39,126 nt of DNA. Origin: Bacteroidota bacterium (GTDB lineage Bacteria > Bacteroidota > Bacteroidia > Bacteroidales > GCA-2748055). This document shows positions 52 through 10,999 of the stretch, in pieces. The notes beneath the pieces are model-generated. The model had not been told where the DNA came from, searched no databases, and worked only from the letters and a program-made list of their open reading frames with translations. The stretch spans positions 1 through 39,126 of the forward strand of contig QMPQ01000006.1 of the NCBI GenBank assembly GCA_003648635.1, given 5' to 3'. The position numbers were made by a program, and so were the translations under genes. Positions within the stretch are counted from its first letter, which is position 1. Every line of letters begins with the position of its first letter.

Positions 52-151
52 ACATAACAATTCACTAAAACCGACCGCAACGCGTGTCACGCTCTTCGCA
101 GAAAAGGCAAAGCCCGCGCCACGCTACGGCGGCTTAGTTCCACCGTTCTAT
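52..151 (+). repeat. attC-like site 1 (100 bp): R'' ACATAAC ... R' GTTCTAT, crossover between 145 and 146
   Basis: ACATAACAATTCACTAAAACCGACCGCAACGCGTG...CACGCTACGGCGGCTTAGTTCCACCGTTCTAT; imperfect inverted repeat with an unpaired A in CCGaCCG/CGGCGG; resembles the aadA-type attC layout (TAACAATTC..AAGCCGAC..GCGGCTTAA..GTTAG). Confidence 0.85.
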
Positions 152-259
152 GGTTTGCATTAATGAAAGAATTTACCCCTTTCTGACCAGTTCCTCTTGC
201 CAGGATTAATAAATGTCGAGTAATGTTAAAACAGAGTCTTTTGCAATAAAAAATACCGT

Positions 260-1387
260 ATGAAAAAGAAAGGTGTATCAAGAAGAGATTTTATGAAGCT
301 TGGAGTCTGCAGCACACTGGCACTTGGTTCGGGCGGTATAATAAATAGTTGTGGGAAAGAATTAGTTAGCGAACCGAGCTCGGTCCCGCAGATTAATGCC
401 TCAGTTGCCGCTATCAAAGGAAACAACCTGGATTCCATGACCCGGGATGCCATTGAAGCCATAGGAGGAATGGATTCGGTGGTCAATGAAGGTGAAACTG
501 TATTCATCAAACCGAATTTTGTTACCTTCCCCTGGGCGCAGTATAATAATTGTTTTCATATCGGGGAGTGTACTAAACCGGAAATCCTTATTGCCACCGC
601 CGAAGAGTGTCTGAAGGCCGGAGCCAGTGAGGTGATAATCGGTGATGGTTCTCAGATGAAAACTTTCGACTGGAACTATTCATACACATTGGATGGAGGC
701 ACCAACCTGGTAAAAGAAGCTGCCAGGCTAAACCAGGAATACGCTGGGACTATTACCCTGTCATGCCTGGAAGTAGATCATCCCTGTACCCATGAAATAC
801 CCTCCAGTATCCACCCTTCCGGTATATTCCTGGTCTCAGGTGTTTACGAAAAAGCAGATAAGATTATTTCCATACCTGTGGCCAAGACCCACCAATGGGC
901 CCAGCTTACACTGGCATTAAAAAATTTCATTGGTGTGCTTTCTATTTCAGAATATGGAACGGATTTGGGAAGCCATTGGGACAGGGGGCAACTCCATATT
1001 AACCCAAAGGCCATTGACCATTCAAGTGTACGTGCCATATCTCAGGCAATTATAGACATTGTCGCTGCAAAAAAACCCGATCTTACCCTCATTGATTTCT
1101 CCATAGGACTGGAAGGAAATGGTCCTTCGACAGGTGCGGGCGGAACAACAGTAAATGTGAAAGACCGATTGGGTAAATGGCTAATACTGGCCAGCAGGGA
1201 TATTATGGCTGCGGATGCAACTGCAGCCCGGGTAATGAATCATCATGTTCCTTCCATTAAACAGTTGACCATGGGATATGAAATGGGGCTTGGAGAAATA
1301 AATAAGGAATCGATCGAGATGATAGGGGAAAGTCTCCCGGGCATTGTAATGCAATGGGAAGCAGCATCCCTGGCAAATTCTCTTTAA
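260..1387 (+). CDS. DUF362-type protein with twin-arginine (Tat) signal
   Basis: ORF with N-terminal SRRDFMKLGVCSTLALGSGG Tat-like signal; body FIKPNFVTFP..., EVIIGDG, KTHQWAQLTLALKNFIGVL typical of DUF362. Confidence 0.75.
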   Translation: MKKKGVSRRDFMKLGVCSTLALGSGGIINSCGKELVSEPSSVPQINASVAAIKGNNLDSMTRDAIEAIGGMDSVVNEGETVFIKPNFVTFPWAQYNNCFHIGECTKPEILIATAEECLKAGASEVIIGDGSQMKTFDWNYSYTLDGGTNLVKEAARLNQEYAGTITLSCLEVDHPCTHEIPSSIHPSGIFLVSGVYEKADKIISIPVAKTHQWAQLTLALKNFIGVLSISEYGTDLGSHWDRGQLHINPKAIDHSSVRAISQAIIDIVAAKKPDLTLIDFSIGLEGNGPSTGAGGTTVNVKDRLGKWLILASRDIMAADATAARVMNHHVPSIKQLTMGYEMGLGEINKESIEMIGESLPGIVMQWEAASLANSL

Positions 1388-1397
1388 GCGACAATCT

Positions 1398-2408
1398 ATG
1401 ATCCTCAGGATGAAAATATCTATCATTTTAGTATTTGTTTTTTTGTCATGTTACGGTTGTGCCAAGAATGGCAATGATCTTATGGACCCGCCCGATTCAC
1501 CAAGCAGCAATGATCCTCCTGAAGTAACCCTGACATGGGTGTCTTCTGCCAGGCCTCCCGGAGGCAGCCTGCATATTGCAAGGACCACAAGCAACGGAAA
1601 AACATCTCAGATCACCTACCTTACCGATTCGCCCTATAACGACTACAAGCCGGTGATCAGCCCGGACAGCACGAAAATTGCGTTCTTCAGGGCATACAAT
1701 GAAGGCGGGAATTTCTTTTTGTGGAATTCGTCAATCTGTGTGATGAATGCCGATGGCAGTGATTTGCGGGAGTTGACTGGCCATGAGTTTATGAATACTG
1801 AACCATACTGGACCCGCGATGGGACCAACTGCATTACATGGTCACGTATGATCCACTCTTCTGAAGGTACCTTTGGAACCTATGTGTACAGGACCGGCAT
1901 GGAGGATAGCCCGGGCGATGAGGTACAGATCTCGGCCACCAACTGGGAATGGGGCAACAGTAGCCTGAGGGATGGACGAATGTTCGTAAGCCGTGGCGGT
2001 GCTCATTTTCTATTAAATCCTGATCCTGGTGGAAATCCTGGATATGAGGAGATCAGCTACCCCGATTCCTATCATTATCTGCACAAGGTGACAATCTCAA
2101 ATGACGAGACCATGATCGCTTATATGAAGAAGATTGATCCAGATGGGGATGATTACCTGGGTTCGCAGATCGTTTATGCAAACCTGGATGCCTCGGTCCC
2201 GGCCATCACAAATGAAGTAGTGTTCGTGCCGAAAAATGAAAATAAGTTCAGCTGGTATGTCAGCATTTCACCTGATAACAACTACCTGATCTATGCGGAA
2301 GACGGCAAAATTATGATTCACGACGTGGAAACGGGTAAAAACAGCCAATTCTCAACTATGAAAGAGGTGGAATACCGCTATCCCACTTTTGATGGTAGTG
2401 TGAAGTAA
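1398..2408 (+). CDS. Lipoprotein with TolB/PD40-like beta-propeller repeats
   Basis: Signal peptide ending LSCYGC (lipobox); repeated motifs KPVISPDSTKIAFF, ICVMNADGSDLRELT, VSISPDNNYLIYAEDG. Confidence 0.7.
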   Translation: MILRMKISIILVFVFLSCYGCAKNGNDLMDPPDSPSSNDPPEVTLTWVSSARPPGGSLHIARTTSNGKTSQITYLTDSPYNDYKPVISPDSTKIAFFRAYNEGGNFFLWNSSICVMNADGSDLRELTGHEFMNTEPYWTRDGTNCITWSRMIHSSEGTFGTYVYRTGMEDSPGDEVQISATNWEWGNSSLRDGRMFVSRGGAHFLLNPDPGGNPGYEEISYPDSYHYLHKVTISNDETMIAYMKKIDPDGDDYLGSQIVYANLDASVPAITNEVVFVPKNENKFSWYVSISPDNNYLIYAEDGKIMIHDVETGKNSQFSTMKEVEYRYPTFDGSVK

Positions 2409-2510
2409 AAACCGGGCAACAACCATGAGAATTTTCCGAGGCTTCTACTCAGCCTGTGTTTGTTCCCTTGCCTCGGTAACACTTAAGCAAGTCAGCGTAT
2501 GAAAATGGAC

Positions 2511-2610
2511 ATAGAACAATTCACTAAAACCGACCGCAACGCGTGTCACGCTCTTCGCAGAAAAGGCAAAGCCCGCGCCACGCTACGGCGGCTTAGTTCT
2601 ACCGTTCTGC
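2511..2610 (+). repeat. attC-like site 2 (100 bp): R'' ATAGAAC ... R' GTTCTGC, crossover between 2604 and 2605
   Basis: Nearly identical to site 1 in the ~85 bp between the simple sites; R'' is the reverse complement of the R' half at 145-151. Confidence 0.88.
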
Positions 2611-2685
2611 GATCTATAATAAGGGATGTAAATAGTTGAGAGGTACGTTTGTTTAGAAGTTGTGTGCTATACTTAAAAAAGAGAA

Positions 2686-3129
2686 ATGGAAATGAATAAA
2701 GTAAATATAATAGGTGCTAGTCTATCTGTAATGATATTAAGTATTTGTAGCTTAGTTTTTATTTTCAGATTACTAGGGCACCAAAAAGTTGAATATTGGC
2801 TTGGATGTATTCTGATACTAATGACAATACCTCTGACATTTCTTTTGATCACTGCAAAACAATTTCAAAGACCTCCTATCTACTACATCCAAATAGGAAT
2901 AATGATTGCATTCCTAATTATAGAATTATTCTTAGATTACATATACAAGCTGGAATTTCGAAAGGTTACATGGATTACTGTTATATACCTTGTCTTATTC
3001 TTTGGTGGAACTGGTGGAATGATAGGCATTGCCACAGAGGCTGGTCGGATTTGGATGATAGCCGCCGTGGTATTGTTCCTTATTATGACAACTTTAGCAT
3101 TTGTTCAACGGGCAATAACAGGAATGTAA
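2686..3129 (+). CDS. Small integral membrane protein, unknown function
   Basis: 147-aa ORF, about four hydrophobic segments; first gene of cassette 2. Confidence 0.6.
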   Translation: MEMNKVNIIGASLSVMILSICSLVFIFRLLGHQKVEYWLGCILILMTIPLTFLLITAKQFQRPPIYYIQIGIMIAFLIIELFLDYIYKLEFRKVTWITVIYLVLFFGGTGGMIGIATEAGRIWMIAAVVLFLIMTTLAFVQRAITGM

Positions 3130-3272
3130 CATACTTTTATAACCAAAGAACAAAATACTGGTCAATTGTATATTTCGTAACAGCTTGATTATGAATACTA
3201 ATTTCCACCTTTAGTCAAGAGAGGTTTCAAAATAACGTATTAAATTGAGGATACCTTAACAGCTAAATTGAT

Positions 3273-4130
3273 ATGAATACGATAAGATTAAAGGACGGCC
3301 GCCAATTAGCCTTCGAACAATATGGGGCTGAAAATGGAATTCCTGTAATTCAGCAACATGGTCTTGGCGATTCCAGACTGGCCAGACATCCAGATAATAA
3401 GCTTACAATTGAAGCTGGAATAAGGCTAATAACGGTAGACAGGCCTGGATATGGGGAATCATCTCCACATTCAGGAAGAACTTTCCTGAATTGGGTACCT
3501 GATATTGAACAACTTGCTAATCAACTTAAAATTGACAAATTTGGTGTAATGTCTCATTCTGGGGGCTCACCTTATGCATTAGCAATCGCCTATAAACTTA
3601 AAGACAGAGTTACCAAAGTTGTACTGGTTTCACCACTAGGTCCATTAAATGTCCCTGGTGTTTCGGAAACAATGCATAAGAGTTTTGGCTTTTTAATGAA
3701 ACTAGGATGGCTTAAACCCCTGATTATAATGGCCGGCAAAAGCGAAGCAAAAAGAGCCAATTCAGATATTGTAAAATATGCTGATAACTGGCTTAAAGAA
3801 TCTCCAGAGCCGGATAAAATATTATTCACCAACCAAGCTTTACGAAAAATGTTTGAAGACGGAATGAAAGAGGCTTTCAAACAAGGAGCAGCAGGTTGGG
3901 TGGGTGATGTTTTTGCTGGTAAAAATTGGAGATTCACCCCAGAAGAAATTCAAATCCCTGTTAAAATCTTCCATGGAAGTGCGGATGAGCTGCTTTTTGC
4001 TGAAATGGGAAAAAGACTGGCACAACGATTGCCTCATGCTGATTTCCAATTATATGAAGGGGAGGGGCATTATTGCATTTTTAAGCATTGGTCCGAAATA
4101 TTGAGAACCTTTTCCCAGGCTCAAGAATAG
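3273..4130 (+). CDS. Alpha/beta hydrolase
   Basis: HGLGDSR, DRPGYGES, nucleophile elbow SHSGGSP, FHGSADELLF, C-terminal GEGHYCIF. Confidence 0.85.
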   Translation: MNTIRLKDGRQLAFEQYGAENGIPVIQQHGLGDSRLARHPDNKLTIEAGIRLITVDRPGYGESSPHSGRTFLNWVPDIEQLANQLKIDKFGVMSHSGGSPYALAIAYKLKDRVTKVVLVSPLGPLNVPGVSETMHKSFGFLMKLGWLKPLIIMAGKSEAKRANSDIVKYADNWLKESPEPDKILFTNQALRKMFEDGMKEAFKQGAAGWVGDVFAGKNWRFTPEEIQIPVKIFHGSADELLFAEMGKRLAQRLPHADFQLYEGEGHYCIFKHWSEILRTFSQAQE

Positions 4131-4300
4131 TTTTTTATAGATTTTCAATTTCTGGCCCCGTTTTCATTATTTTATCAATAAATAGTAGCCCGGAGGATGA
4201 ACACTAGCAAATAGGAGCCGGAGAAGTTGTTCAGTGTGAATAGAAGAAATATCCAGATGGTATACGCATAGTCATAGCGGGCAAAGATGACAATAAGATC

Positions 4301-4357
4301 GCAGAACAAATCATTAAAGCCGACCGCTATCGCGGCGGCTTAGTTCCACCGTTACAC
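4301..4357 (+). repeat. attC-like site 3 (57 bp, short form): R'' GCAGAAC ... R' GTTACAC, crossover between 4351 and 4352
   Basis: GCAGAACAAATCATTAAAGCCGACCGCTATCGCGGCGGCTTAGTTCCACCGTTACAC; AAGCCG(A)CCGC-TATC-GCGGCGGCTT hairpin with one bulged A; R'' matches the R' half at 2604-2610. Confidence 0.9.
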
Positions 4358-4407
4358 TGAATGCGAAGAACATGACTGATATTCCCTCTATCACACATTA
4401 ATAGGTA

Positions 4408-4428
4408 GAGGTCGCAATCTGCGACCTC
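4408..4428. promoter_or_regulatory. Palindrome 15 bp upstream of the ORF6N start (candidate operator or RNA hairpin)
   Basis: GAGGTCGCA-ATC-TGCGACCTC, 9-bp perfect arms; near-identical copy inside the gene at 4664-4684. Confidence 0.5.
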
Positions 4429-4442
4429 AAAAAAGCCAACCT

Positions 4443-5294
4443 ATGGATAATCCAAAGCCAATCGTATTCTCTGGGAAGGAAGTAATAGAAATAACAAAAA
4501 CTTCAATAAGGACTATTCGGGGTCAGGAGGTAATTATCGCAGCTGATGTGGCCAATATTTATGGAGAAACCACTAAACGAATAAATGAGCGTGCCAAGCG
4601 ACATCCTGGAAAATTCCCACCAGATTTCATGTTTCAGCTTTCAAAACAGGAATTTGAAGATTTGAGGTCGCAGTCTGCGACCTCAAAGGTAGGTCGAGGT
4701 GGCACCCAATATCTGCCATATGCATTTACAGAACATGGCGTTTTGCAGATTGCAAATTTGATTATTACGGAACTGGCTGATTCCGTAAGTGTCTTTGTAA
4801 TCAGGGCTTTCGTGGAAATGCGAAAAACATTAATTGCACAACAAAAGGCATTAGTCAGTGCGAGTAAAACGGGATCCGAAATCCCGAAGGCAGCTATACT
4901 ACACAGGGAACTACTACCTAAATTACAAACTACAATTGGGCGTATTCTTGAAAGTGTAATAGACACTGAGAAAGGAACTACGGTAAAAGATGAAGCACTA
5001 GACATTCTTAAAGAATCAATAAGTCATCTTAAGGAACAACTGAGACAAAAAGGACTTCAAAACGAAGAGATTACAGCACGAGTCTCGAAGCTATTGGCAG
5101 AGGCGGAGAATCATCGTGCTACTGCGCGCAAGACTAGGGCAGAATCCGAACAAATCGAATTCATGAACACAATCAGAAAGCTTCGATTGGTTCTAGAAGC
5201 GCAACTAATTATGGCCTCAGAAGAAGGCCCTAAGGACAACCAGAAGCTAAAGGAGCTTATTGAGGTTCTAAAAAACGTTGCGAAGAAATATTGA
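4443..5294 (+). CDS. ORF6N domain-containing protein
   Basis: IRGQEVIIAADVANIYGETTKRINERAKRHPGKFPPDFMFQLSKQEFEDLRSQSATSK...GGTQYLPYAFTEHGVLQIANL; coiled-coil-like C-terminus. Confidence 0.85.
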   Translation: MDNPKPIVFSGKEVIEITKTSIRTIRGQEVIIAADVANIYGETTKRINERAKRHPGKFPPDFMFQLSKQEFEDLRSQSATSKVGRGGTQYLPYAFTEHGVLQIANLIITELADSVSVFVIRAFVEMRKTLIAQQKALVSASKTGSEIPKAAILHRELLPKLQTTIGRILESVIDTEKGTTVKDEALDILKESISHLKEQLRQKGLQNEEITARVSKLLAEAENHRATARKTRAESEQIEFMNTIRKLRLVLEAQLIMASEEGPKDNQKLKELIEVLKNVAKKY

Positions 5295-5334
5295 ATATGG
5301 AATTTAAGGCCGATCCTTTACTTTGGGCTTCTCA

Positions 5335-5434
5335 GTGTAACAATCACATTAAGCCGACCGTAACGCGTGTCACGCTCTTCGCAACAAAAGCAAATCCCGC
5401 GCCACACTACGGCCGCTTAATTCCACCGTTCTGC
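5335..5434 (+). repeat. attC-like site 4 (100 bp): R'' GTGTAAC ... R' GTTCTGC, crossover between 5428 and 5429
   Basis: GTGTAACAATCACATTAAGCCGACCGTAACGCGTG...CACACTACGGCCGCTTAATTCCACCGTTCTGC; R'' is the reverse complement of R' at 4351-4357; diverged copy of sites 1 and 2. Confidence 0.86.
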
Positions 5435-5505
5435 GATCAATAGTAAGGGATGGAAATAGTCGAGATGTACGTTAATATTGAAATTGAAACCTAAAAAATC
5501 AGAAA

Positions 5506-6522
5506 ATGATTAGAAATAATTGTGTATATCTACTGATGTTAACAGCAATAATCTTGCAATCTTGTAATTTCCAAGTTGATAAAACTGATGGGTATACCAT
5601 TAAAGGAAGTATTGAAGGAATAAACAGTGGGAAAGCTTTTTTAGCAAAAATTGATTTAGTTACCAACGAACGTGTTGATATCGATTCAGCAGAAATTCAA
5701 AATGGGAAATTTACTTTTTCTGGAAAGGTTGAAAGCCCATATTTACATACTATATTTATTAATAACAAGTTAAGCAAAATTCATTTTTTCCTTGAAAATA
5801 ATGATATTGAAATCTTTGCAGATATCAATAATTTAGAACATGCTAAAATAACTGGTTCAAGAGAAGATAGTTTATTTCATTCTTACAAAACAGAGGATAT
5901 TTTTGACAGAAAAACAGGAATGGAAATAATGTTAAATTATCCTGACTATTCATTTGCAGCTTTTACAGCATATTATCAGTTTCAAATACATAATATTCAT
6001 GCCGATACTTTAGATATAATAATGCAGGGGTTTAAAGAATCCGTTGACAAAACAGTTTACTATAAACATTTAGTTAAGTTATATAATACCTTAGAGAGAG
6101 TTGCTATTTCTAAACCAGCTCCAGAGTTCACAATACCTGACACAAAGGGAAATTTAATTCGCTTAGACGATTTCAAAGGTAAATATGTATTAATCGATTT
6201 TTGGGCTTCCTGGTGTGCACCTTGCAGAGCGGCTAATCCCAAGCTGGTGCATATTTACAACACTTTTAATAAAAGAAATTTTACTATAGTAGGAATTTCA
6301 GTAGATAGAAATAAAGATGGGTGGATTAAAGCAATTCAAACAGATGAACTTCCGTGGACAAATTTATCAAACTTAAAGGGTTGGGATGAAGTATCTAATA
6401 TTTATGGGGTAAAAGCGATTCCGCAGAATTTTTTACTTGATCCCAATGGGATCATCATAGATAAAAATATTGAAATTGACAATATGATCGAAAAACTAAA
6501 TATAATATTGCCTGTAAGCTAA
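5506..6522 (+). CDS. Thioredoxin-fold TlpA/ResA-like thiol-disulfide oxidoreductase with DUF4369-like N-terminus, lipoprotein
   Basis: Signal with LQSC lipobox; YTIKGSIEGINSGKAFL (DUF4369-like); FKGKYVLIDFWASWCAPCRAANP with CxxC motif. Confidence 0.85.
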   Translation: MIRNNCVYLLMLTAIILQSCNFQVDKTDGYTIKGSIEGINSGKAFLAKIDLVTNERVDIDSAEIQNGKFTFSGKVESPYLHTIFINNKLSKIHFFLENNDIEIFADINNLEHAKITGSREDSLFHSYKTEDIFDRKTGMEIMLNYPDYSFAAFTAYYQFQIHNIHADTLDIIMQGFKESVDKTVYYKHLVKLYNTLERVAISKPAPEFTIPDTKGNLIRLDDFKGKYVLIDFWASWCAPCRAANPKLVHIYNTFNKRNFTIVGISVDRNKDGWIKAIQTDELPWTNLSNLKGWDEVSNIYGVKAIPQNFLLDPNGIIIDKNIEIDNMIEKLNIILPVS

Positions 6523-9710: not shown

Positions 9711-9857
9711 ATGCAACGAACCATCCACATATCCACCCCCGCCCACAACGGGCTCTAGGATATCACCAGGCAAGTGGAGGCCATCGTGGCTGAATCAGGT
9801 GTCCAAACCGGTCTGGTCAATGTCTACGTTCAAGGTGCAACGGCAGGGATTATGATT
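9711..9857 (+). pseudogene. Truncated yjbQ-like fragment with in-frame stop at 9756-9758
   Basis: Translates MQRTIHISTPAHNGL*DITRQVEAIVAESGVQTGLVNVYVQGATAGIMI, matching 42 of 49 positions of the N-terminus of the intact gene at 10586; homology stops at 9857. Confidence 0.85.
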
Positions 9858-9937: not shown

Positions 9938-10228
9938 ATGAGAAGTATTCATGAAATAAGAACTACTTTGAGTAATCATCGGAATCATTTATTCCAGGCG
10001 TACCCAATAAAATCCATTGCGATTTTCGGTTCGTATTCCAGGGAGGAGAACACTGCTGATTCTGATCTGGATATTCTCGTAGAATTCAACGATAAAATTG
10101 GAATTCGTTTCATCGATCTTGCAGATGAGATCGAAGAAATCGTTGGTCTTAAAGTTGATCTTGTTTCAAGAAATGGTATTAAGGAAAGATATTTAAAGGC
10201 TATTGATCCTGATTTGATCTATGTCTAA
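9938..10228 (+). CDS. mntA: MntA-type minimal nucleotidyltransferase antitoxin
   Basis: GSYSREENTADSDLDILVEF = GSxxR...DxD nucleotidyltransferase motif; overlaps the downstream HEPN gene. Confidence 0.85.
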   Translation: MRSIHEIRTTLSNHRNHLFQAYPIKSIAIFGSYSREENTADSDLDILVEFNDKIGIRFIDLADEIEEIVGLKVDLVSRNGIKERYLKAIDPDLIYV

Positions 10229-10577
10229 GCGAGATTCACTATTGCTTTTACAGGATATGTTGGAATCAGCGCAGAAAATAAAGCGCTATACCAATGGCTC
10301 AGACTATGAGGCTTTTCTTTCAGACGATAGAACGGCAGATGCTGTGGTTCGGAATTTTGAGATTATAGGTGAAGCAGCAAATCGCCTTGATCAAGAGCTC
10401 AGAGATTCATATCCAGGAATTGAATGGACCAGAATACGTGGATTTCGGAACCGTATCGTTCATGATTATTTTGGGATTGATTATCGTATCGTTTGGGAAA
10501 TTATTGAATCTTATCTGGATGATTTAATAGGTACGCTGGAAACTATCATTGATGAGCTAAATGACGCCCAGGCCTAG
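10221..10577 (+). CDS. hepT: HepT-type HEPN (DUF86) toxin
   Basis: FRNRIVHDYFGID contains the RX4HXY HEPN motif; NFEIIGEAANRL typical of DUF86. Confidence 0.88.
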   Translation: MSKRDSLLLLQDMLESAQKIKRYTNGSDYEAFLSDDRTADAVVRNFEIIGEAANRLDQELRDSYPGIEWTRIRGFRNRIVHDYFGIDYRIVWEIIESYLDDLIGTLETIIDELNDAQA

Positions 10578-10585
10578 AATAAACA

Positions 10586-10999
10586 ATGCAGCTAACCATC
10601 CAGATCAGCACCCCCGCCCACAACGGGCTCTACGACATCACCCGACAGGTTGAGGACATTGTTTCGGAGAGCGGTATCCAATCCGGCCTGGTCAACGTCT
10701 ATGTCCAGGGTGCCACCGCCGGAATCATGATCCAGGAGAACTGGGATGATTCTGTCCAAAATGATGTGGTAGCACTGCTAAACAAACTGGTCCCTGCCGG
10801 TGTCTGGGAGCATGACCATCAGGACAACAATGGCGATTCACACCTGAAAGCTGGTATTGTAGGGCCCCAGGAGACCATTCCTATTGTGGATGGGAAGATG
10901 GGGCTTTCCACCTGGCAGAATATTTTTCTTTGTGAATTTGATGGCCCCAGGGAACAGCGGAATATCATGATCACAGTGATGGGTATTGAACCATCGTGA
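10586..10999 (+). CDS. yjbQ: YjbQ family (UPF0047) protein
   Basis: STPAHNGLYDITRQVEDIV, VNVYVQGATAGIMIQENWD, GDSHLKAGIVGPQETIPIVDGKMGLSTWQNIFLCEFDGPREQR. Confidence 0.9.
   Translation: MQLTIQISTPAHNGLYDITRQVEDIVSESGIQSGLVNVYVQGATAGIMIQENWDDSVQNDVVALLNKLVPAGVWEHDHQDNNGDSHLKAGIVGPQETIPIVDGKMGLSTWQNIFLCEFDGPREQRNIMITVMGIEPS

Follow-up and report, generated by a model that had tools for sequence, protein, structure and literature searches.

The window, i.e., the whole stretch of 39,126 nucleotides analysed here, opens on an integron cassette array. The repeats that separate its gene units are genuine integron recombination sites (attC), the cassettes have defined borders and fit their own ends as circles would, and elsewhere in the same genome there is a complete integron with its attI, along with two intI genes in all. 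The region is almost certainly the far end of an integron in the chromosome, presumably served by an IntI encoded in the same genome. In the proposed mechanism, each cassette, made up of one or two genes plus one attC, would be excised as a circle through attC × attC recombination by that IntI, a tyrosine recombinase. The circle would then be inserted at attI (or at an attC). IntI would act on the folded bottom strand, cutting between the G and the TT of the crossover triplet.

Position 1 of the window is the first base of contig C6, which belongs to a fragmented, metagenome-type assembly (4.13 Mb, 416 contigs) from an uncultured member of the Bacteroidales. Four direct repeats share the sequence CGGCGGCTTAGTTCCACCGTT with 90–100% identity, at 127–147, 2586–2606, 4333–4353, and 5410–5430 (Table 1). 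An earlier note, made from the letters alone, had placed four crossover points here, and a GTT lies exactly at each, to the base (145–147, 2604–2606, 4351–4353, and 5428–5430). Its four same-orientation structured repeats, all on the + strand, are the same four that an attC covariance model matches, and the R''–L''–L'–R' architecture with a bulged A (CCG-A-CCG) is seen in the sites. Two parts are conserved: the right arm, GGCTTAGTTCCACCGTT, and the bulged-A left arm. The left arm of site 3 has two unpaired bases, like a canonical site.

Table 1. Cassettes and attC sites at the start of the window.
Feature	Position	Strand	Basis
Cassette 0, 3' end and attC; cut by the contig start	1..145	+	C6 begins at 1; attC model match
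Cassette 1 (2459 bp): DUF362 protein 260–1387, PD40 lipoprotein 1398–2408	146..2604	+	Start/R'' complementarity; Pfam
Cassette 2 (1747 bp): membrane protein 2686–3129, alpha/beta hydrolase 3273–4130	2605..4351	+	Start/R'' complementarity; Pfam
Cassette 3 (1077 bp): ORF6N protein 4443–5294	4352..5428	+	Start/R'' complementarity; Pfam
Probable remnant of a further cassette: DUF4369-AhpC/TSA gene 5506–6522	5429..6522	+	Cassette-2-like start; no attC at end
attC site 1	53–151 (model match 55–152)	+	R'' CATAAC 53–58; crossover G145/T146; repeat, folding, covariance model
attC site 2	2510–2611	+	Crossover G2604/T2605; repeat, folding, covariance model
attC site 3, short form (~60 bp)	4297–4357	+	Folding, covariance model E = 7e-12
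attC site 4	5332–5434	+	Crossover G5428/T5429; repeat, folding, covariance model

The covariance model was trained on ten long sites only, from the present genome and one relative. Run on the 39-kb window, it returned at E ≤ 1 only the four sites (4e-27, 2e-26, 1e-22, and 7e-12) and no fifth attC. The score of the short site is independent, as that site was absent from the training set. Rfam at gathering thresholds gave zero matches within the window. When folded as single-stranded DNA, the bottom strand is much more stable than the top strand at three sites (−18.9 vs. −12.2, −20.7 vs. −15.5, and −17.4 vs. −11.0 kcal/mol), and the short site is a tie (−12.4 vs. −12.0 kcal/mol).

The four attC delimit three cassettes, and Pfam agrees with the gene assignments of the note (DUF362, PD40, small membrane protein, alpha/beta hydrolase, ORF6N, and DUF4369-AhpC/TSA). 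The note took all the flanking units for captured cassettes; this holds for the three units bounded by attC. No attC lies behind the TlpA-like unit that follows position 5428, so this unit is at best a cassette remnant. A 148-nt repeat (2515/5339) continues beyond the crossover, the unit after 5428 starting like cassette 2. An identical start of ~50 nt, GTTCTGCGATCnATAnTAAGGGATGnAAATAGT, heads otherwise unrelated cassettes, in the window at 2605–2662 and 5429–5486 and elsewhere at L020:17691–17740 and L161:7690–7744; it may be a promoter or leader. A palindromic 24-nt sequence, GAGGTCGCAnTCTGCGACCTCAAA, occurs upstream of the ORF6N gene (4408–4431) and again within it (4664–4687). The ORF6N protein matches the PADLOC candidate family PDC-S05 (E = 3e-39), and the gene may therefore be a candidate defence gene. 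Across the genus, cassette genes include toxin-antitoxin genes (MNT/HepT, ParE, AbiEii-like), an acetyltransferase, a methyltransferase, a glyoxalase, and secreted proteins.

The strongest evidence is the complementarity between the two ends of each cassette. Once a cassette closes into a circle, its own first bases complete R'. It follows that R'' should pair with the start of its own cassette, not with that of the next one. The start of cassette 1, GTTCTATG, pairs with R'' CATAGAAC at 2510–2517 (8 bp); that of cassette 2, GTTCTGCGATCT, with R'' AGATCGCAGAAC at 4296–4307 (12 bp); and that of cassette 3, GTTACACTGA, with R'' TCAGTGTAAC at 5332–5341 (10 bp). Measured on 24 cassettes, from contigs of five genomes in the genus, this match extends on average 4.96 nt beyond the GTT, as against 1.19 nt after re-pairing, and none of 20,000 permutations reached as high a value. 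The R''/R' pairs that are adjacent in the standing arrays fit over a mean of only 1.31 nt. The cassettes are thus discrete circularisable units, in keeping with a former circular state of each.

The note placed intI and attI off the window, to the left, if they existed at all. Neither is found on the window's contig; two full-length IntI genes lie elsewhere in the genome, on C66 and C135. With the integron-integrase model, whose cut-off is 265 bits, they reach 414 and 408 bits. Along its whole length, the C66 protein can be aligned with the structure of the Vibrio integron integrase VchIntIA (2A3V; residues 4–315, E = 2e-88), and the RHRY catalytic residues and the IntI-specific insert fall in line. 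C66 carries a complete integron. Its attI lies ~500 bp from intI, in divergent direction, and is followed by three attC of the window's family. The crossover of this attI is marked by comparison with a relative, G008: the two agree through GCAGTAGAATATATGTT, which ends in GTT, and differ immediately after. The attI for the window's array is absent from the assembly. A DNA polymerase IV gene lies near intI on C135 (L021:7013–8077). In G003 the same gene (L172:3491–4555) adjoins a GSCFA gene, and of intI only a fragment persists, which gives this integron locus the look of a decayed one.

C66 was considered as the upstream half of the window's array and rejected. A nearly identical contig, L027, shows that the C66 array gives way to a truncated yjbQ and then to a transporter gene of the chromosome, so that C6 is not its continuation. 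No overlap was found between the ends of the contigs C6, C66, C135, and C301. Synteny suggests instead that C135 and C6 flank one integron locus, their contigs not being joined in the assembly. GSCFA lies on the intI contig in C135, where three other genes separate it from intI, and in G006, G008, G013, G015, and G017, and QueG adjoins the array in C6. G011 yielded no full intI; there, a single contig has GSCFA and QueG 8 kb apart. In G015, one contig ends with intI next to GSCFA, and another starts with an array next to yjbQ-QueG. It is the arrangement in G011 and G015 that points to C135 and C6 as the two flanks. In G016 the integron has the opposite direction, with intI beside QueG.

The array might also be an orphan attC cluster (CALIN), that is, cassettes left behind after the platform was lost or inverted, with no link to an integrase. 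We consider this doubtful, yet the best placed of the alternatives. It would account for a contig without intI and for the loss of attC from the last unit, and C66 itself has attC on the opposite side of its intI (864–919, 2816–2900, and 10060–10114). However, C135 stops 189 bp upstream of the intI start, where the array should begin, and the synteny of G011 and G015 places the C135 intI and the window's array in the same interval. Under the favoured reading, a chromosomal integron divided between contigs, we infer that the C135 integrase, or that of C66 in trans, works on the window's array, and recombination may still be taking place. In no pair of strains were the window's cassettes seen to be gained or lost.

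That integron DNA of another organism was binned or assembled into this genome is very improbable. In its favour, the assembly is of metagenome type, in 416 contigs, and C66 matches a contig of the congeneric genome record JAOZUK at 99.97% identity along 9.9 kb. Against this, one contig holds both the array and core genes of Bacteroidota (QueG, Suf, and InfB), which bears out the note's placing of the array beside core genes in a Bacteroidota chromosome. In addition, the same attC and IntI families recur in independent assemblies of the genus, and the Bacteroidales IntI form a clade of their own.

The reading of the repeats as REP or MITE-like elements inserted between genes by chance fits their form, imperfect palindromes of about 100 bp, but is refuted by the cassette-specific match of each unit's start to its own end and is next to impossible given that all copies have a single orientation and lie only at gene-unit borders, that the right arm is conserved up to the crossover with the sequence changing immediately afterwards, and that intI, attI, and the same sites stand together on C66. 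The note had named a randomly inserted repeat family in relatives, together with failure to match an attC model, as grounds for giving up the integron; the sites do match, and they occur only at cassette joints.

The comparison with related genomes that the note proposed shows that congeners have the same attC family with other cassettes. The attC model has matches in half of the genus (9 of 18 genomes), up to 18 sites per genome and up to 10 on one contig in the longest array as assembled. The attC regions of the window match in 6 of 17 congeners, and the gene bodies of cassettes 1–3 are found in none of the 17, except for weak ORF6N matches. This difference in cassette content is one between species only. 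An IntI above the cut-off is encoded by 6 of the 18 genomes in the genus (the present one among them), by none of 10 other genomes of the family, and by 6 of 393 genomes sampled from the order, two of the six belonging to the present genus. The frequency in the order is about 1%. A tree built from 86 IntI unites the Bacteroidales sequences in a single clade with support 100/100 and a long stem (0.45). The IntI of G294, from the same order, clusters with those of Proteobacteria and seems to have been acquired separately. The single Rhodothermia IntI in the tree falls outside the Bacteroidales clade.

A second feature of the locus concerns yjbQ. Fragments of its 5' end (the first ~146 nt) are found in the window at 9711–9856 and at the end of the C66 array (L027:3042–3190), and a full yjbQ at 10586–10999 terminates the series of fragments and modules in the window. 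Further fragments lie beside or near GSCFA in G006, G007, G015, G016, and G017, and in tandem in G011 and G015 (L190, G015:C20: 2621, 3528, 4823, 6578). Nearly all end at codon 48–52 and continue into a common tail, ATTCnnTnTGATAnnCCCTCTTTT, with an information content of 16.9 bits vs. 6.6 bits when shuffled (0 of 5000). Small modules such as MNT/HepT lie between fragments. In the window, an MntA/HepT-like toxin-antitoxin pair (9938–10577) stands between the fragment and the full yjbQ, its scores of 46.0 and 55.5 falling under the NCBIfam cut-offs of 60 bits. No recombinase gene was noticed in the modules examined between fragments. Among 28 genomes of the family, the fragments are limited to the present genus. 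No mention of yjbQ as an integration site was found in the literature searched. The pattern looks like repeated site-specific insertion into yjbQ, at a hotspot that also houses the integron. Modules of ~0.7–3 kb would be added successively, each leaving a yjbQ 5' fragment and the conserved ~30-nt tail. Only tentatively, and with some scepticism, do we propose that an ancient Bacteroidales integron lineage is housed in this genus inside a second, undescribed accretion system at yjbQ codon ~49.

The integron system described here shares with the sedentary chromosomal integrons of Vibrio and Xanthomonas an IntI with the integron insert, an attI with GTT, like-orientated cassettes, related attC, and toxin-antitoxin pairs among the cassettes. 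Unlike those, its host belongs to Bacteroidales, its IntI forms a separate clade, the arrays are short as assembled, and the cassettes are long, some with two genes. With mobile class 1 integrons it shares attC with two unpaired left-arm bases and the GTT crossover; the short site (4297–4357) resembles the aadA-type attC. In contrast to class 1 integrons, there are no resistance genes, no similar attC-like DNA was found in the plasmid collection searched, and the IntI scores 313 bits, below the class 1 type equivalog cut-off of 435. The Salinibacter ruber M1 integron (PMC9024848) is likewise reported as a complete integron from the Bacteroidetes/Chlorobi group, though probably of a different class.

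The integrase is under SOS control in Proteobacteria. Both groups of Bacteroidetes LexA orthologs are reported missing from Bacteroidales (PMC8565304), and an SOS-controlled integrase would therefore need another explanation there. The integron as a kind is already known, and integrons have been reported for Bacteroidota (PMC8618304, PMC9668308). In surveys of finished genomes they were frequent among Gamma- and Betaproteobacteria and almost missing from Bacteroidetes, where at first only In0 elements and later one complete integron, that of S. ruber, were recorded (PMC9024848). For the Bacteroidales clade, its attC family, and the locus, no description was found in the literature searched, a search that most subscription papers fell outside. 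What we describe is thus an established means of gene capture, with an old integrase branch of its own, in an order from which few cases are known. That the Bacteroidales lineage is native and monophyletic and has an attC family to itself shows that gene capture by integrons has long been at work in the order.
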